From the NCBI GenBank assembly GCA_017626145.1, contig JAGAJK010000015.1, positions 1-45,164 on the forward strand: a DNA stretch of 45,164 nucleotides. Reading direction: 5' to 3'. Origin of the DNA: Clostridia bacterium. GTDB taxonomy: Bacteria > Bacillota > Clostridia > RGIG6154. Shown one piece after another: positions 1-33,226 of the stretch. Below the pieces are notes generated by a model. It saw only the letters and a program-made list of their open reading frames with translations, was not told where the DNA came from and made no database searches. Numbering within the stretch: the stretch's first letter is position 1; every line of letters begins with the position of its first letter. The translations under genes and the position numbers were made by a program.

Positions 1-686
1 CTGCCTGAAACATAAAGAATCTTATTTTCTATTCTCCAGTTTACATTACCAACTTCCCCGCCTTCAATGGTCTTGGTGTTAAATGTGTATACATCGCCAA
101 TTGAATAACTTTCATTTTCATTTTCAGGATTATACATACGAAGTTCAAGCTTTACAACAAGATCCTTGTTATTTGCTAAGAATTCATCAGTAAAGAACAC
201 ACCACAGTCAAATTCCTTAACAGCTTCATAAACATCCGTATATGTAACTTTCAAACCGTCCTTATTCATAAGCTTAGCAGCAAAATCCATAATTTTTAAA
301 GGTTCATCTGCATTAAGTGTTACTTTTTTGTTAAAAGGAACGGTTACCCAATTAGGACTCCATCCATCATACTGACCTGAAAGGTAGCCATCAACACCTT
401 CTTCAGGTACTGAGTAGAATGTAACGTCTTTGTTGATGGTAAGAACGAAATCAGCATACCACGCACCATATGCTTCGAGCTGTTCGTCGGTTGCATCATC
501 TGCAGCAAATTTAAGAGCAAATGTAAGATCAGGAGCATCGCCGGCCTCAAGCTCAGCAGCTGAAATGTTTGATATTGTTGCTGTAGGAATAGCGATTGTT
601 TCGTTTGTTGCAAAAGCTGTTACGCCGAGTGAACAAAGGATAATTGATACAGCTAAAACAACAGACATAAGTTTTGTTAACTTCAT
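1..686 (-). CDS. secreted protein of unknown function, C-terminus outside window
   Basis: The reading frame opens at ATG 686 and runs off the left edge, giving 228 codons with no stop. The N-terminus is a clear type I signal peptide: MKLTKL, a hydrophobic core, then an AFA-type cleavage site near residue 26. The mature part is acidic and rich in Asn, Asp, Thr and aromatic residues, as in beta-rich extracellular Clostridia proteins. There is no lipobox cysteine. An AAGGAAAA ribosome binding site precedes the start, and a strong promoter lies about 80 bp upstream. I recognise no family; a cohesin-like or other adhesin-type domain is possible but not shown. Export and the start codon are well supported, the function is not. 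Confidence 0.8.
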   Translation of the reverse strand, partial: MKLTKLMSVVLAVSIILCSLGVTAFATNETIAIPTATISNISAAELEAGDAPDLTFALKFAADDATDEQLEAYGAWYADFVLTINKDVTFYSVPEEGVDGYLSGQYDGWSPNWVTVPFNKKVTLNADEPLKIMDFAAKLMNKDGLKVTYTDVYEAVKEFDCGVFFTDEFLANNKDLVVKLELRMYNPENENESYSIGDVYTFNTKTIEGGEVGNVNWRIENKILYVSG

Positions 687-809: not shown

Positions 810-1052
810 TTATCTGAAAAATTTTGCCAAAAATCTGCCTATTACAGGAATACTTTTGATGTATAAACGTCTCAGCCGTTTTTTCCAGTGAATCTGTTCT
901 CTGTCGCTTGTACGGGCAATCTCACTTTTCAGGTATCTTCTTTCTTCCGAAAAGGGAATAAATACATTGAAATAGAAGTATAAAACGTATATAAACAGCA
1001 AAACTCCGATAAGCAGGAGCAGTAATAACAGATTAAATTCTTGTTGTCTCAA
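810..1052 (-). CDS. small single-pass membrane protein
   Basis: An 80-residue protein starting at TTG 1052 behind AAGGAAGG, about 8 nt upstream. After a short polar N-terminus, residues about 8-31 form one long Leu/Ile/Val/Phe/Tyr helix. The C-terminal half is strongly basic (KKRLRRLY, KFFR) and is therefore likely cytoplasmic by the positive-inside rule. No enzyme motif is present and I recognise no family. It has its own consensus promoter and is followed by the promoter of the secreted protein gene, so it is probably monocistronic. The promoter, ribosome binding site and helix-plus-basic-tail composition argue for a real gene despite its size. Confidence 0.6.
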   Translation of the reverse strand: MRQQEFNLLLLLLLIGVLLFIYVLYFYFNVFIPFSEERRYLKSEIARTSDREQIHWKKRLRRLYIKSIPVIGRFLAKFFR

Positions 1053-1269: not shown

Positions 1270-1508
1270 TTATTTTTTAACAAATTTTTTCGCAAAGATT
1301 GAAATATGTTCATCTTTAGGCTTGTACATAGAACAATTACCCATAAAATAACATTGAAGATATGGGCAAAAAGGAGAAGCTTTGTCTATAAGCAGGTATC
1401 TTTCGCCTGTCTTACAATTTGAACATAGCCGCTTTTTGAACATATTTTCACCTTCTTTGCATAAACGTTGAACTTCCTGTGTAGTAAGTGCGGTTAATTT
1501 TCACACAT
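1270..1508 (-). CDS. small cysteine-rich protein, frame broken by one base
   Basis: From ATG 1443 (upstream AAGAAGGTG) there is an intact 57-codon frame ending at 1270. Its cysteines are C7, C10, C26, C31 and C37 (CSNC, CPYLQC, C), which suggests a zinc- or metal-binding knuckle with a basic C-terminus. The same frame continues upstream as protein-like sequence (LTALTTQEVQRLCKEGEN) with no start codon. A better start, ATG 1508, sits 8 nt behind GAGGAAGG but reads MCEN then stop at 1494. One extra base in the four-T run at 1498-1501 (plus strand) joins the two into a single protein of about 79 residues. It lies downstream of tetR, probably in the same transcript. Possible causes are decay, a base-calling error, or use of the internal ATG. 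I recognise no family. Confidence 0.55.
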
Positions 1509-2216: not shown

Positions 2217-2250
2217 TGTAACATTTCATTATTGTGTAATGTTCGTTACA
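2217..2250. promoter_or_regulatory. inverted repeat in the tetR leader, candidate operator
   Basis: TGTAACATT (2217-2225) is mirrored by AATGTT-CG-TTACA (2238-2250), an interrupted dyad some 20-50 bp before the tetR start. TetR proteins commonly bind such dyads near their own gene; autoregulation here is inference. Confidence 0.45.
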
Positions 2251-2325
2251 AAAACCTGCAAAAAATAATCCGGCGACACCAAACTGACTGTGTACCGAAC
2301 ATATCACCTGATAAATTGCCCGAGA

Positions 2326-2341
2326 CATAATCTATATTATG
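2326..2341 (+). repeat. recombination-site copy L1 (outer left)
   Basis: CATAATCTATATTATG: perfect 6-bp arms CATAAT/ATTATG around the asymmetric centre CTAT. The inner flank (CGGTAGGCAA) resembles that of copy R (TCGTAGGTAA, read on the other strand). It is in direct orientation with L2 and inverted relative to R. Confidence 0.8.
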
Positions 2342-2357
2342 CGGTAGGCAACTTCCA

Positions 2358-2373
2358 CATAATCTATATTATG
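2358..2373 (+). repeat. recombination-site copy L2 (inner left)
   Basis: An identical 16-mer in the same orientation as L1, 32 bp further in. Its outer flank CCA matches the outer flank of R. Confidence 0.8.
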
Positions 2374-2597
2374 CGGTAATAAATTTTGACAGCACGTTTT
2401 GCTGTAGGGATATTCTACCATTAAATGGGGAGTTTGTCAATGGTTAAATACATATTTTTTTGTTTTTTTGTGACATTTTTTGAAAATGAAAATAATTAAC
2501 AGACCAATGTTTTAAAACAAACAACATTGGTCTTAAAACGATGTCGTTTTTTGATAATTTTGAACATTTGAAATTATCAAAAAGCAATTACCTACGA
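2374..2597. other. candidate invertible DNA segment
   Basis: This 224-bp gene-free segment lies between L2 and R. It contains a consensus promoter reading left and two hairpins: AGACCAATGTT/AACATTGGTCT (2501-2533) and TTTTTGATAATTT/AAATTATCAAAAA (2548-2583). The hairpins can stop transcripts arriving from the recombinase gene. Its borders are inverted 16-mers and a tyrosine recombinase gene ends 28 bp away. Inversion would turn the promoter toward the 3' end of the recombinase gene and away from tetR. If L1 is used instead of L2 the segment is 256 bp. Confidence 0.7.
2412..2440 (-). promoter_or_regulatory. consensus promoter inside the invertible segment
   Basis: On the minus strand TTGACA (2435-2440), 17 bp, TAGAAT (2412-2417). 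The transcript would start near 2405, pass L2 and L1 and reach the tetR start at 2199 after a leader of about 200 nt. Confidence 0.8.
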
Positions 2598-2613
2598 CAT
2601 AATATAGATTATG
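2598..2613 (-). repeat. recombination-site copy R (right, inverted)
   Basis: CATAATATAGATTATG, the exact reverse complement of L1 and L2. The inverted orientation is what permits inversion rather than excision of the DNA between the sites. Confidence 0.8.
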
Positions 2614-2624
2614 TGGTTTTTTTG

Positions 2625-3464
2625 TTAGCAAAGAAGAAGTCCAAGTTCCTGAATTTGTTTTTTGTGAATGTCGCTTGTGTCCATTGTGTAAATTCTGGTG
2701 GTGTTGACGCTTGAATGACCGAGGATGTCTGCCAGTCTTACAATGTCTTTTTGTAAAGAATAATATGTTTTAGCAAACAGATGTCTTAAATTATGAGGAA
2801 AAACCTTTTGTGATGAAACACAGGCATCATTGCATAGTGTTTTCATATCAGCCCATACATTTGAACGGTCAAGAGGCTTTCCGGTTTTAGTAATAAAAAT
2901 ACTTCCGCTTGTTATTTTATGCTCTTTAATATAATAGGAAAGAAGTCGGCACAAATTTTCAGGCAGGAATACCTGTCGCATTTTTCCTTTGCATCGTATA
3001 ACGGTGCTTCCTTTTTTTGTAGCTTCAACGGTTATATATTTCAATTCTGAAACTCTTATCCCCGTAGCACATATAGTCTGCATAACAAGAAACAGTCTGT
3101 TGTTTTTTCTTTTTTTTGCTGTTTTCAGTAAACGGTTGTATTCATCTTTCGTTAAATTTTTATTCTCATCTGCAAAAATTTTTTTCTGTAATCTGAGAGT
3201 TTTCACTTTCAAATCGTACCATTCATTAAAATCAAAGAACGAATTAAGTGAAGAAAGCATTGAATTGACACTTGTCGGTGCATATCCTGACAGAAGGTGC
3301 TCTTTGTATTCAAGAACCTTTTGCTTGTCAGGAATACGACCGCTTAGCCATACAAAGAAGGCGTTAATATCCCGCATGTACTTTTCAAGTGTGGCAGCAG
3401 ATTTTTCTTCACTGAGAAGATACTCCTTAAAACGAGAAATGTGCGATTTTGTGATTTTTTTCAT
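2625..3464 (-). CDS. tyrosine recombinase (XerC/D-like integrase family)
   Basis: A 279-residue site-specific recombinase. Residues 1-90 form the SAM-like core-binding domain, and residues about 100-279 the catalytic domain. All catalytic residues are visible: R137 (in GIRVSEL), a beta-hairpin lysine at K159 or K161, H224 and R227 (HNLRH), H250 (LGH) and the nucleophile Y259 (TRIYT). ATG 3464 is taken as start because AAGGAG lies 9 nt upstream; TTG 3473 overlaps that site. The gene ends 12 bp from site copy R and is on the same strand as tetR. A stand-alone recombinase of this size beside a short inverted-repeat-bounded promoter fits a promoter-inverting enzyme better than a prophage integrase. 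It could alternatively be a housekeeping Xer protein, but no dif-like site or phage genes are near. Confidence 0.92.
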   Translation of the reverse strand: MKKITKSHISRFKEYLLSEEKSAATLEKYMRDINAFFVWLSGRIPDKQKVLEYKEHLLSGYAPTSVNSMLSSLNSFFDFNEWYDLKVKTLRLQKKIFADENKNLTKDEYNRLLKTAKKRKNNRLFLVMQTICATGIRVSELKYITVEATKKGSTVIRCKGKMRQVFLPENLCRLLSYYIKEHKITSGSIFITKTGKPLDRSNVWADMKTLCNDACVSSQKVFPHNLRHLFAKTYYSLQKDIVRLADILGHSSVNTTRIYTMDTSDIHKKQIQELGLLLC

Positions 3465-3611: not shown

Positions 3612-6299
3612 TTATTTTATAATTTTTTCGAAGTTAATTTTAACACCGTTGTTGGTTATGTTTGTCTTAACATAAGTGAGATTATCTTTGTTCTGTGAAA
3701 TTTCCAGAGCAGAGGCTTTGTTTATACCCTTAACTGCAACGTAGTTAACATTATCTTCCTTATATATATTGTCTCCGTCGGCACTGTAAAAAGCAAAAAC
3801 ATTTTTGCTTTCAGCCGCTTCGCCAAGTAAAGCCTTTAAAACCGTAAGCTCCGATTTATCTGTCATAAGAGAAGGGTCCTCGTTCATAAAAACAAATAAA
3901 TTCGTGTAGCTTTGAGTGCGTATATCATTTGCAAGCTTTTCAAACTGTGCGTTGGAAAGATACCCATCTGAATTATTGAGGTTTATAAAGAGGTTACCCT
4001 TTTCTGAAAAGCTTTTATATCCGTCAATGGTAATTACAGGTAAATCTTTGTATGAAACTCCATCCAGTGACCAGCAGTAATTTGCATTTTCGTTTTCAAG
4101 AACTTTTTTGATATTTGTATTTAACACTTTTGATAAAAGTGTGTTATCGGGAGCAAGCTTACCGGTTACAATGAATGTCATATAGCCTGATTGCTGTTTC
4201 TCAGCAGGAACAAACGGCGTTTTAATCTCTGAAAAACTGATTTCTCCCGTATCAAACAATGTAAGGTCGTCGAACAGTATAAATCCCTTTGTTCTTTCAC
4301 TTGTGTTGTTTTGTACAACATAAAGTGTGTTAAGAGTAGAAGCACCCTTTGGTAGCTTTGCAGTTAAATATTTCCATCCGGTGAAATCGATGCTTTCACA
4401 TAAAACCGCAGTCAAAAGCTCGTTATCGTCATTTCGAAGCTGTGCTTTAATCATATGACCTGACGGACCGGGTGAGTATACCCATACCCCTGTTTTTGAT
4501 TTGGAATCAATTACTTTTGGTACATCTAAAATAAGGTATGAAGCTTTGGTGACGTTATCCGGTGATGTAAAGTCATAGCTAAGCATCGCACTTTTTTCAC
4601 CGCTTCGGCTTAAATATTCTGAAAGAACAGCTTCGCCTGAAACACTTGACAGAGGGTATACCGAATGTGAAAAGCCGGTTTTTTCGAAATTTTCGGTAGT
4701 GGAAGCCGAGTACGAAACAAAACCGTAAGCCTTGGAAACAGTTACCTTTTTACTTCCGATTTCCCCTTTGCTTTCTGAAGAGATAATTACATCACGATTG
4801 TCAATTTTTGCACTGTATCCGTTTTTATCATATCCCGTTACAGAAAAATCTGAGGTAAGGATTTCTTCCTTATTAAAATGTGACGGATGAATTGTAAGAC
4901 GGACAGGCTCATCGTAAACAGTTATGTGTGTTCTGGAGGTTACGTTGCCGATTTTTGCGGTAATTTCAATATTGTCTCCTGAGTTTGTTGCGTAGAATAT
5001 ATTGTCTTTAAAATAGCCGTAGTTTTTGTCAACTGACCAGGTCACATTTTTTGTGTCGGTATCAATTACATTATGGTAATTGTCGTAGCATAAGCCGGTA
5101 TCAAATTCCTTTGATGTATTTTTAAGCATTACAGAGCTGTCCGTTTCTATATCAAAGGAGGCGAAAGTGCCTTTTGGTGCGGTGGAGAATATGCCGAGAC
5201 CGTTGGCAACAGGTCTTAGCGAAGACTGTGAAGGAAGATTGATTACCGATTGAATTCCTGCAGTTTTTGCTACCATTGTGGTAGAACCTCCACCATCAAA
5301 ATTGATGGCATTGTATACACCGTATTCAATTAAAAATTCTGCCGTTTGTTCAAGTGTCATACCAACAGCTTTGTTTTGTCTGCCGTCAATTGTTATTAAA
5401 TATAAAACGTTTCCGCTTTTATCAGTTCCTGCAACGGTTCTCGGATTCACGCCTGAAATGTTATGGGTAATTTTTGCCGGTTTGCCGTTTTCAACAAGCT
5501 TTGTTCCGCCGCCTACCGCACTTTTGATTTTGTTAAGATCAAGAGAGGTTTTTATATCTATTTCAATATTATCTCCAACCTTGAAATTGTCTGTAAGGAA
5601 TGGGTCAAATTCAGGCAGGTGACGGATTACGTATCCGTTTTCAGGAACCTTGACGCCTTCTTTTTCACGTCTCATTTCAATAACTCTGCCGTTTTTTATT
5701 ACCATTTCAAGTATGTTATTCATACTTCCTTCCGTAATCTCTTTGAAATCGGAGGTGTAAATGCAAATTTCAGCCAGTGAATCGTATTTATTAAGCTGTT
5801 TTATTTTTGCACTTTCACCGTTGGGAGCGGTGACTGTTATGTCCGTTGTGACAAAGTCAATCAGCACCTGGTTTGTATCAGTTATGGCAAGAGTGGCACA
5901 GGTGTTTTCAATTTCATATGCACCCGAAAGAAGAATTCCGTTTTTTATAAGAGTGCCTATGGAAGAGCCTTTTTTACCTGTTGAACCGCTCCATGAAAAG
6001 AAATCGCCATTAATTGCCGCAACAGAATTATGTGTGCTTGCCATAGACTTGACAGTTTCAAGAGAATCTATACCCTCGGAGGGGATAATAACATCTGCTG
6101 AAATATATTTTTCGGAAAGGTCAGCCTTTACGATATTTATATTTTGCCATCCTTCTGCCGTAAACTGTTTCAGATTTGTTAAAGTAACACCTTTTGTGAT
6201 GACGGTTTCTGTTTTTTCTTCATATATAGCTGCATTTGCTGTAAGAGCAAAAATAAATACAAAAATAAGCACAAGAGAAATTATTTTGTTTTTATTCAT
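3612..6299 (-). CDS. secreted phosphodiester glycosidase family protein (NAGPA domain)
   Basis: An 895-residue exported protein: signal peptide 1-23 ending ANA, then a NAGPA-type domain (about 85-375). The core motifs are NGDFF (97-101), the VNPRTVAG stretch and NFDGGGSTTMV (333-343), as in mammalian uncovering enzyme and in bacterial exopolysaccharide-associated proteins. Residues about 380-690 look like beta-sandwich or carbohydrate-binding modules. Residues about 700-895 look like a calcineurin-type phosphoesterase fold that seems to lack the metal-binding His/Asp set. AAGGAGG precedes ATG 6299. It is divergent from the GT/csaB fusion, which suggests work on cell-wall glycopolymers. The family assignment is firm, the substrate and C-terminal fold are inference. 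No SLH or LPXTG anchor is visible. Confidence 0.88.
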   Translation of the reverse strand: MNKNKIISLVLIFVFIFALTANAAIYEEKTETVITKGVTLTNLKQFTAEGWQNINIVKADLSEKYISADVIIPSEGIDSLETVKSMASTHNSVAAINGDFFSWSGSTGKKGSSIGTLIKNGILLSGAYEIENTCATLAITDTNQVLIDFVTTDITVTAPNGESAKIKQLNKYDSLAEICIYTSDFKEITEGSMNNILEMVIKNGRVIEMRREKEGVKVPENGYVIRHLPEFDPFLTDNFKVGDNIEIDIKTSLDLNKIKSAVGGGTKLVENGKPAKITHNISGVNPRTVAGTDKSGNVLYLITIDGRQNKAVGMTLEQTAEFLIEYGVYNAINFDGGGSTTMVAKTAGIQSVINLPSQSSLRPVANGLGIFSTAPKGTFASFDIETDSSVMLKNTSKEFDTGLCYDNYHNVIDTDTKNVTWSVDKNYGYFKDNIFYATNSGDNIEITAKIGNVTSRTHITVYDEPVRLTIHPSHFNKEEILTSDFSVTGYDKNGYSAKIDNRDVIISSESKGEIGSKKVTVSKAYGFVSYSASTTENFEKTGFSHSVYPLSSVSGEAVLSEYLSRSGEKSAMLSYDFTSPDNVTKASYLILDVPKVIDSKSKTGVWVYSPGPSGHMIKAQLRNDDNELLTAVLCESIDFTGWKYLTAKLPKGASTLNTLYVVQNNTSERTKGFILFDDLTLFDTGEISFSEIKTPFVPAEKQQSGYMTFIVTGKLAPDNTLLSKVLNTNIKKVLENENANYCWSLDGVSYKDLPVITIDGYKSFSEKGNLFINLNNSDGYLSNAQFEKLANDIRTQSYTNLFVFMNEDPSLMTDKSELTVLKALLGEAAESKNVFAFYSADGDNIYKEDNVNYVAVKGINKASALEISQNKDNLTYVKTNITNNGVKINFEKIIK

Positions 6300-29527: not shown

Positions 29528-29558
29528 ATTCTAAATATGTATTATGGAGATGAGTATT

Positions 29559-31394
29559 ATGTATATTGTTCCGCAACCAAAAGAATTGAAATCAGGTGAC
29601 GGTATTTTATGTGCATATGAATATGATGTTGTTCTTGATAAGCATTGTGAAAATAATATTTTTATTGCGGCAAAAGACCTTAAAAACGTGATGATTGAAA
29701 ACGGTTTTACAAACACAAAAATCGTAAAGCCCTTAACAAAAAGGGAAAACTGTATTTTTCTTACCTTTGAAGAAAAGGGCGGTCAGGGTTACAGCCTTAA
29801 TGTAAATGAAAAAGGTATTATTGTTAATGGTGAAAGTCAAAGAGGTCTTTTTTATGGTATTCAGAGCTTGAAACAGATAATAATGCAAAGCGGGATAAAT
29901 GTTCCATACCTTGAAATAAATGACAGCCCCGATATGAAGGAAAGAGGATATTATCTTGATATATCCCGAGGCAGAGTACCTACTGTTGAAGGTATAAAGA
30001 AATTTATCGATAAAGCGGCATTTTATAAATATACTGATTTTCAGCTTTATATTGAGCATACCTTTGCATGGGAAGGTTTTGAGGAGATATATACTCATCA
30101 GGGGTATTTAACTGCAGAAGAAATTCTTGAGATTGATGCCTACTGCAGAGAACGGTACATTGACCTTGTTCCGTCTTTTGCATTGTTCGGGCACTTGTTT
30201 AATCTTTTGCAGTCAAAATCCTATAATAAATATTGCGAGCTTGAAAATCATAAAATGATTAAACATAACTACCGTGAAAGAATGGAGCATCACACCATTG
30301 ACCTTTCCAATCCCGAAAGCTTTGAACTTTTAAAGAGAATGCTTGATCAGGTAATTCCTTTGTTTACAAGTAATAAATTTAATATTTGCTGTGACGAAAC
30401 GGTAGACCTTGGCATCGGCAGAGCAAAAGAAATGGCAGACAAAATCGGAAAAGGACAGATGTATGTTAATCACATCAACGCACTTTACAAATATCTCCAC
30501 GATGAAATGGGTAAGACCATTATGTTCTGGGGCGATATCGTAGGAAACTACTTTCTTGATATAATGGGGGATTGCTCCGATGTTGTAACTCAACTGCCTG
30601 AAGATATTATATGCCTTTTATGGGAATATAATCACCCCATGCGTGAAAAACGTTATGTAACCATTATGGAAAACCGATTGACAAAATGTGTCTGTCCGTG
30701 GACAGCATGTGCTTCGCGTTTTATACCTCTTTATCACGGAACAGGCTATGTAGGCTACGATAATATTGACGAAATGGCTCGCTTTGGTAAGAAAAACGGA
30801 GTAGACAGAATGCTCGTTACTGACTGGGGCGATTCGGGGCACGTTTGCCACGCAGAGTTGAGATTTCCGCTTCTTGCACTTGGCGGTGCTAAATCATGGA
30901 ACAACGACAGTCTTGACGGATTTTGTGAATTTGATCGTTATATTTCACAAATCGAATATGGCAATCCGGAAGTTCTTGCACTTTTAAAAGAAGTGTCGGA
31001 GGTTTCAAAGTTATTTCAGTGGGGAAATCTTATTTCTGAATACAATAACTGTGTTGCTTCTGTTGATATTAATGCACCTAAATGTGAAAAAAAACCACCT
31101 ACCAAAAAAATGAAGGAAGCGTACAGTAAGCTTGAAGAACTTGAAATAAAAATCGCTTCCTGCAAAATGAACGAGTCACGTGATGCAGTTATAACGGCGG
31201 TAAAGGGAACAAGACTTGTAATTGCCATAAAGCTTGCGGAAAAATATCCCGTTATGGATAACTTTGTTCTTGCAAATAAGATTGAGCAATGGTTCGAAGA
31301 GTTTGCTCTTGTATGGAGAAAGGATAACAAAGAGAGCGAGCTTAACCGTATGTATGAATTTCTGGAAATTTATTGTACTGAATTAAGAGAGTAA
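29559..31394 (+). CDS. GH20-type beta-N-acetylhexosaminidase, tandem copy 1
   Basis: A 611-residue enzyme without signal peptide, so cytoplasmic. Residues about 1-115 form a GH20b-like domain. From MKERGYYLDISRGRVP (near 127) a TIM barrel follows, with the adjacent catalytic pair D279-E280 in NICCDE, the substrate-assisted catalysis signature of GH20. A helical C-terminal region follows. ATG 29559 has GGAGATG 6 nt upstream. It likely releases terminal GlcNAc or GalNAc from imported glycans or wall fragments. The next gene, 17 nt away, is a paralogue with stretches of identical DNA. Confidence 0.85.
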   Translation: MYIVPQPKELKSGDGILCAYEYDVVLDKHCENNIFIAAKDLKNVMIENGFTNTKIVKPLTKRENCIFLTFEEKGGQGYSLNVNEKGIIVNGESQRGLFYGIQSLKQIIMQSGINVPYLEINDSPDMKERGYYLDISRGRVPTVEGIKKFIDKAAFYKYTDFQLYIEHTFAWEGFEEIYTHQGYLTAEEILEIDAYCRERYIDLVPSFALFGHLFNLLQSKSYNKYCELENHKMIKHNYRERMEHHTIDLSNPESFELLKRMLDQVIPLFTSNKFNICCDETVDLGIGRAKEMADKIGKGQMYVNHINALYKYLHDEMGKTIMFWGDIVGNYFLDIMGDCSDVVTQLPEDIICLLWEYNHPMREKRYVTIMENRLTKCVCPWTACASRFIPLYHGTGYVGYDNIDEMARFGKKNGVDRMLVTDWGDSGHVCHAELRFPLLALGGAKSWNNDSLDGFCEFDRYISQIEYGNPEVLALLKEVSEVSKLFQWGNLISEYNNCVASVDINAPKCEKKPPTKKMKEAYSKLEELEIKIASCKMNESRDAVITAVKGTRLVIAIKLAEKYPVMDNFVLANKIEQWFEEFALVWRKDNKESELNRMYEFLEIYCTELRE

Positions 31395-31411: not shown

Positions 31412-33226
31412 ATGTATTTAGTTCCACAACCAAAGAAAATAAGAATTAATGATGGCGTTTTGTGTGCTTACGAATATGATATTGTTCTTGACAAGAATTG
31501 CGAAAATAATATTTTTATCGCGGCAAAAGACCTTAAAAATGTTATGGTTGAAAACGGTTTTACAAACACAAAAATCGTAAAGCCCTTAACAAAAAGGGAA
31601 AACTGTATTTTTCTTACCTTTGAAGAAAAGGGCGGTCAGGGTTACAGCCTTAATGTAAATGAAAAAGGTATTATTGTTAAGGGTGAAAGTCAGCAAGGTT
31701 TGTTTTTCGGCATTCAGACTTTAAAACAGATAATAATGCAGATCGGAATTAATGTTCCCTATATGGAGATTAATGACTGCCCCGATATGAAGGAAAGAGG
31801 ATATTATCTTGATATATCCCGAGGCAGAGTACCGACTTTAGATGGTGTAAAGAAATTTGTTGACAAGCTTGCACTTTATAAGTACACAAGCTTTCAGCTT
31901 TATATCGAGCATTCCTTTGCTTTTGAAGGCTTTGAAGAAACCTTTACTCATCAGGGGTTTTTAACAGCGGAGGAAATTCTTGAAATTGATAAATATTGCA
32001 TTGAAAGATATATTGAGCTTGTTCCGTCTTTCTCCTCTTTTGGTCACCTTTACAATCTTCTGCAGTCAAAATCATATCAGAAGTATGCAGAGCTTGAAAA
32101 TTATCAGCCAAGGGTACATAAATGGCAGGAAAGCCGCGAACACCATACAATTGACGTATCGAATCCGGAAAGTATGGAAGTTATAAAGAAAATGTTTGAC
32201 CAGGTAATACCTTTATTTACAAGCAATAAATTTAACATCTGCTGTGACGAAACAATGGACGTAGGTCTCGGCAGAGGTAAAGAAATGGCTGATAAAATCG
32301 GCAAAGGTCAGATGTATGTAAATCACCTTAACAATCTCTGTGCATATTTAAAAGAGCAGGGCAAGGAGGTTATGTTCTGGAGCGACGTTATAAGAAGTCA
32401 TACCGAGCTTGTACCGCAGCTTCCAAAGGACATTATCTGTCTTTTGTGGGAATACAACAATCCTCTTCGCGAAGCAAGAGTAAAGCCTATAATGGAAACA
32501 ACTATGAGAAAATATATCTGTCCGTGGACTGCAGGTGCGTGCCGTTTTGTTCCCCTTTATCACGGTACCGGCTACGTTGCTTACGATAATATAAAGGCAA
32601 CAACGGATTTGGCAAAAGAGGGTGGCATTGAAGGATTCTTACTTACCGACTGGGGTGATTTCGGTCATACCTGCCATGCAGAATTAAGATTCCCCGTTTT
32701 AGCATACGGCGGTGCTCTTTCATGGAATTTTGATGGCAATGCAGACGTAAACGAGTTCGACAAATATATTTCTCTTCTTGAATACGGAAACGAAAATGTT
32801 CTTGGAATTTTAAAGCAGATTTCTGCAAAGTCCAAGGTTTTTGAATGGAATAATCTGGTGGGTGAGTTTAACAAAAAATCGGCAAGTGTTGACCTTGATT
32901 GCGAAAACAAGCCTACATTTATTGAACCGGATGAAAATATGGTTAATGCTTATAACGATATCTATAAGCTTGAATCAGAGGTTGCGGGCTGCAAAATGAA
33001 CGAGTGTAGGGATGCAATTATAACCGCAGTAAAGGCAACAAGACTTATTATTGCCATAAAGCTTGCGGAAAAATATCCCGTTATGGATAATTTTGCTCTT
33101 GCAAACGAAATTGAAAAGTGGTTTGAAGAATATGCTCTCGTTTGGAGAAAAGAAAACAAGGAAAGCGAGCTTTACCGCATTTATGAATTTATAGAACACT
33201 ACTGTGCAATTTTAAGAACTAAATAA
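31412..33226 (+). CDS. GH20-type beta-N-acetylhexosaminidase, tandem copy 2
   Basis: 604 residues, colinear with copy 1 over the whole length and with the catalytic pair at the same positions (D279-E280 in NICCDETMD). AAGGAG precedes ATG 31412. Differences cluster in the region about 200-260 and the segment 300-420, which shape the substrate pocket, so the two copies may have different specificities. DNA from 31548 to 31680 is identical to 29695-29827, suggesting gene conversion. No signal peptide. A strong terminator follows. Confidence 0.85.
   Translation: MYLVPQPKKIRINDGVLCAYEYDIVLDKNCENNIFIAAKDLKNVMVENGFTNTKIVKPLTKRENCIFLTFEEKGGQGYSLNVNEKGIIVKGESQQGLFFGIQTLKQIIMQIGINVPYMEINDCPDMKERGYYLDISRGRVPTLDGVKKFVDKLALYKYTSFQLYIEHSFAFEGFEETFTHQGFLTAEEILEIDKYCIERYIELVPSFSSFGHLYNLLQSKSYQKYAELENYQPRVHKWQESREHHTIDVSNPESMEVIKKMFDQVIPLFTSNKFNICCDETMDVGLGRGKEMADKIGKGQMYVNHLNNLCAYLKEQGKEVMFWSDVIRSHTELVPQLPKDIICLLWEYNNPLREARVKPIMETTMRKYICPWTAGACRFVPLYHGTGYVAYDNIKATTDLAKEGGIEGFLLTDWGDFGHTCHAELRFPVLAYGGALSWNFDGNADVNEFDKYISLLEYGNENVLGILKQISAKSKVFEWNNLVGEFNKKSASVDLDCENKPTFIEPDENMVNAYNDIYKLESEVAGCKMNECRDAIITAVKATRLIIAIKLAEKYPVMDNFALANEIEKWFEEYALVWRKENKESELYRIYEFIEHYCAILRTK

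Follow-up and report, generated by a model that had tools for sequence, protein, structure and literature searches.

Small inversions are common in Clostridia and often lie near signalling genes (PMC5903667). Known examples are the RecV switches of Clostridioides difficile at cwpV, flgB and cmrRST, in which a clostridial tyrosine recombinase flips short segments, and which include both a surface protein (CwpV) and, at cmrRST, an invertible element that can control a regulator (PMC2784873, PMC5903667, PMC6837544) and lies upstream of it (PMC7241687). Outside the Clostridia, the fim system of Escherichia coli has a tyrosine recombinase gene adjoining an invertible promoter of about 300 bp (FimB/FimE, fimS 314 bp) that drives fimbriae directly (PMC9993118). 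More recently, the main text of a 2025 read-based survey of hCom2 described inverton group 139, with 32 of its 33 members in Clostridia and located beside one group of tyrosine recombinases (invertase group 35); the orientations of these invertons shift in culture, as seen in reads, and two published examples have inverted repeats of 14-26 bp that are approximately 205-230 bp apart (PMC11892184).

Here, we describe a locus in a contig of 45,164 nucleotides (JAGAJK010000015.1, the whole of which is referred to as the window) from the 2.78 Mb draft genome of a gut-type Clostridia bacterium, in which a tyrosine recombinase gene adjoins a short promoter-bearing segment that faces a tetR gene. It is similar to group 139 and its group 35 invertases in occurring in Clostridia, in its adjacent tyrosine-type recombinase and in segment length, and the two are probably the same family, a match of class, length and linkage and not of compared sequences; a TetR link is not mentioned in the main text of that survey (PMC11892184). 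It differs from the RecV switches, where one recombinase acts at several unrelated repeats, in that every cassette is paired with an adjacent recombinase and a spacer of its own, and from fim in having unrelated sites and a TetR protein between the switch and its product (PMC9993118). The window cassette is a member of a conserved TetR-surface-protein subclass of a widespread and partly known family. Its new aspects are the site code, the subclass linked to TetR, the presence of a third site, and a possible second role of sites as terminators. Our search of the open-licence literature found no paper tying an invertible promoter to TetR in such an arrangement.

Results

Organization of the window cassette

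The features of the cassette and of the genes behind it are as follows.

3..686, minus strand: secreted protein with a signal peptide, cut short where the contig ends; presumably a large surface protein, with giant secreted proteins at the same place in relatives
810..1052, minus strand: membrane protein, 80 aa; belongs to the conserved tetR module, with homologues behind tetR or within the module in other tetR-type loci
1270..1443, minus strand: cysteine-rich small protein, 57 aa, with a relative in locus L048
1633..2199, minus strand: intact tetR-family regulator, 188 aa (PF00440), first gene past the switch; same family in 13 cassettes
2235..2250, minus strand: likely TetR operator TGTAACGAACATTACA, lying beyond the invertible segment; also precedes tetR in relatives
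2325..2614: putative invertible segment, 288 bp from site A to site C and about 256 bp from B to C; homologues in opposite orientation in relatives
2325..2341, plus strand: site A, outer distal recombination site (ACATAAT-CTAT-ATTATG), an exact copy fitting the consensus in 71 relatives
2357..2373, plus strand: site B, inner distal recombination site, an exact direct repeat of A, 32 bp away; recurs in relatives
2412..2440, minus strand: promoter TTGACA-N17-TAGAAT, extended -10, facing tetR (ON)
2501..2533: hairpin AGACCAATG...CATTGGTCT, conserved and located between promoter and site C; probably a terminator in both directions (folding z-scores, conservation)
2548..2583: second hairpin, TTTTTGATAATTT/AAATTATCAAAAA (inverted repeat, folding)
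2598..2614, minus strand: site C, proximal recombination site, exact copy inverted relative to A and B and fitting the relatives' consensus
2625..3464, minus strand: tyrosine recombinase of 279 aa, the presumed switch enzyme (PF00589, PF02899, catalytic residues)

The initial annotation of this DNA reported identical inverted 16-mers at 2326 and 2358 versus 2598. These are indeed present but are one base longer, the 17-mer ACATAATCTATATTATG occurring at 2325-2341 and 2357-2373 on the plus strand and at 2598-2614 on the minus strand, and a whole-genome search returned these three exact copies and no others. With up to three mismatches allowed there are six matches in the window versus 0.28 expected, and none of 100 shuffles reaches six. 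Each repeat is an almost perfect 16-bp palindrome, and the inverted arms around the repeats extend over 31 nt at 84% and 27 nt at 89% identity. Site C is followed on the plus strand by TGGTTTTTTT, making it terminator-like for transcripts heading to the recombinase gene.

The near-consensus promoter said to read toward tetR on the minus strand was recovered at 2440-2412, where it matches 11 of 12 consensus bases and has a TG ahead of the -10; a promoter-like match is found inside the segment in nearly all relatives. The locus thus has inverted sites enclosing a promoter beside a gene, the arrangement of an invertible promoter switch. One point against the switch reading is that the window genes behind tetR carry their own promoter-like sequences, at 1140-1112 and 789-761.

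The recombinase and its subfamily

The gene adjoining the repeats encodes an intact tyrosine recombinase, as had been claimed, with its ATG at 3464, a stop codon at 2625-2627 that leaves 10 bp to the nearest site, Pfam matches to PF00589 (E=4.6e-26) and PF02899, and a catalytic R-K-H-R-H-Y set (R137, K161, H224, R227, H250, Y259) that is invariant across 20 aligned relatives. We surveyed 99 near and distant relatives together with 391 genomes drawn from the class, 63 of which contain this subfamily; a scan of named genomes gave two relatives only. Close homologues are approximately 50-66% identical and ordinary XerC/D-type proteins about 30%, such that these recombinases form a separate subfamily. 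Among solved structures the closest are an XerC-like protein, XerA and XerD, and among NCBIfam models XerA and XerD are nearest, although the scores fall far short of the cut-offs for XerD (126.8 vs 329.6), XerC (112.6 vs 335.2) or XerA (141.9 vs 220); the score with the NCBIfam tyrosine-type DNA invertase model is also far below its cut-off.

Recombinase relatives occur too in predicted viral contigs and plasmid-labelled records. Two loci labelled viral (L161 and L168, from IMG/VR) carry the recombinase family with matched sites, and a 42% identical relative is present in phage record MT836497.1. Within the window, a gene for an 895-aa secreted NAGPA-type phosphodiester glycosidase (3612-6299) lies just upstream of the recombinase gene on the same strand, and 29544-31394 and 31412-33226 are tandem, closely similar ORFs of about 610 aa each, glycoside-hydrolase-like and apparently a recent duplication.

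Site family and spacer code

We oriented 101 loci by their recombinase and searched past its 3' end, finding a spacer-matched inverted pair in 77; many of the others are truncated, broken or at contig ends. Nearly all intact subfamily members have two inverted sites just beyond the 3' end of the recombinase gene, usually flanking a promoter, with the pair typically 10-40 bp past the gene and enclosing about 105-435 bp (mostly 210-290). Recombinase and site type co-occur across the relatives, a linkage that, like the site family itself, is established by sequence comparison. The consensus is ACCACATAAT-NNNN-ATTATGTGGT; the two inverted sites have the form ACATAAT-NNNN-ATTATGT.

To examine the four central bases we picked sites on their arms only and took the outermost pair per locus, for 71 loci. 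The spacers are complementary within a locus in 70 of the 71, versus 2.1% of comparisons between loci, and 45 different spacers are represented; in the one exception an extra chance site lies inside the recombinase gene, and the true pair of that locus matches. True pairs have no palindromic spacers, compared to about four expected. Tyrosine recombinases bind the arms of their sites and require a centre that is identical in both partners, and constant arms with a variable, shared centre are therefore what such an enzyme requires. Judged from these sequences, the locus-matched four-base centre is the signature of a recombination crossover.

The sites also invite comparison with XerC/XerD-dif, as the arms CATAA...TTATG with a 6-bp centre resemble dif and the recombinase is nearest to XerA/XerD. 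However, the window recombinase falls below the Xer cut-offs, the arms are symmetric and presumably served by one enzyme, and the many loci have variable spacers and would undergo inversion where dif sites resolve dimers. A Bacillus-type dif pattern, used to look for a host dif-like site, had no match in the genome, so that the resemblance to dif remains an observation.

This genome contains three cassettes of the family with three spacers: CTAT in the window, TCTT on contig C1 and CAGC on contig C82. The latter two (L064, G000:C1, and L065, G000:C82), found in ON and OFF orientation, stand before genes for a SHOCT-domain protein and a YpsA/SLOG protein, and the sequence of each is nearest to cassettes of other families, which suggests transfer. 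Standard sites are present in Monoglobus pectinilyticus and Subdoligranulum, and Pusillibacter faecalis has diverged sites ahead of an SLH (S-layer) protein gene. Cassettes without tetR drive secreted or S-layer proteins, capsule-type genes, and chaperone-like and other operons directly.

Indirect evidence for inversion

Both orientations were found among relatives, between related cassettes of different genomes. In three pairs the homologous segments are opposite in orientation: L040/L064 (181/218 positions identical after reversal), L064/L091 (172/215 identical) and the tetR-type pair L093/L094 (199/251 identical). The direction of the promoter varies between loci, being toward either the target or the recombinase. 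In addition, a contig end falls no more than 550 bp downstream of the recombinase in 14 of 84 cases, versus 3 upstream (p=0.013), an excess that is expected where both orientations coexist and break assemblies. Flipped copies were also sought in near-identical viral contigs, but L164 and L165 are identical and in the same orientation, and L169 and L170 end at the recombinase. The original proposal that the promoter now facing tetR is invertible by a recombinase of its own is supported by the matched spacers and by the opposite orientations among some 100 relatives, and from these comparisons it is very probable that the adjoining recombinase can flip the window segment.

tetR, its operator and the genes behind it

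One TetR family follows the switch in 13 loci, including the window. The linkage is more clustered on the recombinase tree than shuffled labels are, with at least five gains or losses needed. Behind tetR, 11 of the 12 other tetR-type cassettes have genes for secreted proteins, S-layer proteins or giant surface proteins, mostly accompanied by a small membrane protein; L107 is an exception. The membrane protein, present in most loci, is about 80-95 aa, and the secreted proteins reach more than 1,700 aa, some having S-layer homology domains. The gene order of the window matches this conserved TetR-surface module, with the contig ending inside the secreted gene. A small cysteine-rich protein (CxxC...CPYL...CSMYK) recurs near cassettes, at 1270-1443 in the window and at 3990-4181, after the recombinase, in L048.

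In the window and in seven relatives, the interval from the distal site to tetR contains a palindrome, TGTAAYGNNCRTTACA with small deviations, which differs where the TetR is more divergent. With this inferred operator as query, the genome contains one exact copy, before tetR, and three further sites with two mismatches; at three mismatches the 64 matches are not far above a reversed-pattern control (38 in all). One weak TetR homologue is encoded elsewhere in the genome. The simplest reading of these sequences is that TetR locally autoregulates its own operon. The suggestion that TetR passes the switch on to a whole regulon is thus unsupported, the one exact copy of the inferred operator being that before tetR, and neither is a contrast between switching a regulator and switching surface structures, as surface proteins stand behind tetR in those 11 of 12 cassettes. 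The output of the switch is most likely surface proteins via a local regulator, and not a broad regulon.

Hairpins and terminators

The hairpin at 2501-2533 has folding z-scores of -3.6 and -4.6, one per strand. The motif AGACCRATG...CATYGGTCT recurs inside the segments, on the stretch from the promoter to the far site, with GACC..GGTC in 36 of 77 versus 0.44 in shuffles, and could be a terminator or a protein site. Past the proximal site, toward the recombinase, 75% of loci have at least six T in eight bases, versus about 15% for inner flanks, and from its sequence the proximal site may act as a terminator shielding the recombinase gene from the promoter in its OFF orientation.

The distal side bears on a different account of tetR expression. 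The initial annotation saw no other good promoter for tetR, and no minus-strand match of at least 9/12 is found between the invertible promoter and tetR; however, a weaker element, TTGCAG-17-TACACA at 2233-2261 (about 6/12 consensus), overlaps the presumed operator. It may give tetR a promoter of its own, and this is the main rival to the switch reading: the segment inverts but tetR is expressed mainly from that TetR-repressed promoter outside the segment, the switch only adding to or attenuating this expression or working mainly via a distal-site terminator. In 7 of the 8 loci sharing this operator type, a TTG stands ahead of TACA at a distance of 17 bp (16 in one case). Moreover, a T-run past the distal site, in the ON leader, is present in 12 of 13 tetR-type loci versus about 20% of others, and the predicted distal hairpin in tetR-type loci is stronger in OFF in 8, weaker in 2 and equal in 2; together these recall terminator-toggling switches, an analogy that is only suggestive. 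However, distal-hairpin strength does not differ significantly between ON and OFF when all loci are considered (p=0.087), the window is the tetR-type locus without the T-run and its hairpin is stronger in ON, and the outside element is a poor consensus match where the invertible promoter is near consensus. We regard expression mainly from the outside promoter as unlikely, but as an alternative to be taken seriously.

A third site

A third spacer-matched site or doublet is found in 13 loci, nine of them with the extra site at 32-34 bp from its twin: the window (2357-2373 with 2325-2341), L048, L049, L050, L053, L058, L099, L102, L104, L105, L106, L115 and L119. Where the promoter direction is clear, the doublet is mostly found on the side faced by the promoter, as follows if inversion occurs between the outermost sites, so that the inner copy moves together with the promoter. 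At a spacing of 32 bp two sites lie too near each other to recombine by looping, and A and B may simply provide two segment lengths.

Discussion

We propose, with a probability of about 0.86, that this is a self-contained phase-variation cassette in which the recombinase flips a promoter to turn tetR and the surface genes ON or OFF. The recombinase (2625-3464) would pair site C with A or B, cut in the shared spacer (about TCTATA) and invert the DNA between. In the present, ON orientation the promoter at 2440-2412 would read through B and A into tetR and the later genes; after inversion it would face the recombinase gene from its 3' side, and there site C and its U-run should halt transcription. 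The hairpin at 2501-2533 probably shields tetR from recombinase read-through in both states. The palindrome at 2235-2250 is the probable site at which TetR binds to adjust expression of its operon, which would ultimately yield a large secreted surface protein together with a small membrane protein.

Alternatively, the system could be a relic that has decayed or become locked, or the integrase of a mobile element with residual sites, and would then no longer flip here. Such histories are suggested by the viral and plasmid-labelled records noted above, by truncated recombinases or absent sites in some loci, and by the recombinase tree, in which families are mixed, so that cassettes move between lineages. 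The window, however, has an intact gene with conserved catalytic residues, three exact sites and a near-consensus promoter; inverted sites do not achieve excision of an element; and a promoter-enclosing pair is retained across families. We therefore consider a relic improbable. That the three repeats are operators of the neighbouring TetR and not recombination sites, a notion prompted by their near-perfect 16-bp palindromes, like many TetR operators, and by the location of two of them between promoter and tetR, is rejected as highly improbable, because more than 60 loci that lack tetR have segments bounded by these same arms, the spacers covary within loci, and a different palindrome precedes tetR.

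Returning to the phase-variation cassette, a broader and more tentative proposal, which we do not favour strongly, is that it belongs to a large, horizontally moving, one-enzyme family with a four-base address, a terminator-like proximal site, a promoter and terminator toggle in the TetR subclass, and a travelling third site. A four-base address on constant arms would, on this same proposal, permit several cassettes in one genome without cross-talk.

Constant arms with a locus-specific spacer provide a simple sequence rule by which a large class of clostridial phase switches can be found without reads and each be matched to its enzyme and its target. A set of related recombinases, whose four-base addresses are presumably orthogonal, would be useful as laboratory DNA inverters. 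For the bacteria themselves, the family suggests that in many uncultured gut bacteria giant surface proteins are switched stochastically, and that in some cassettes the local TetR could add a signal-dependent layer.
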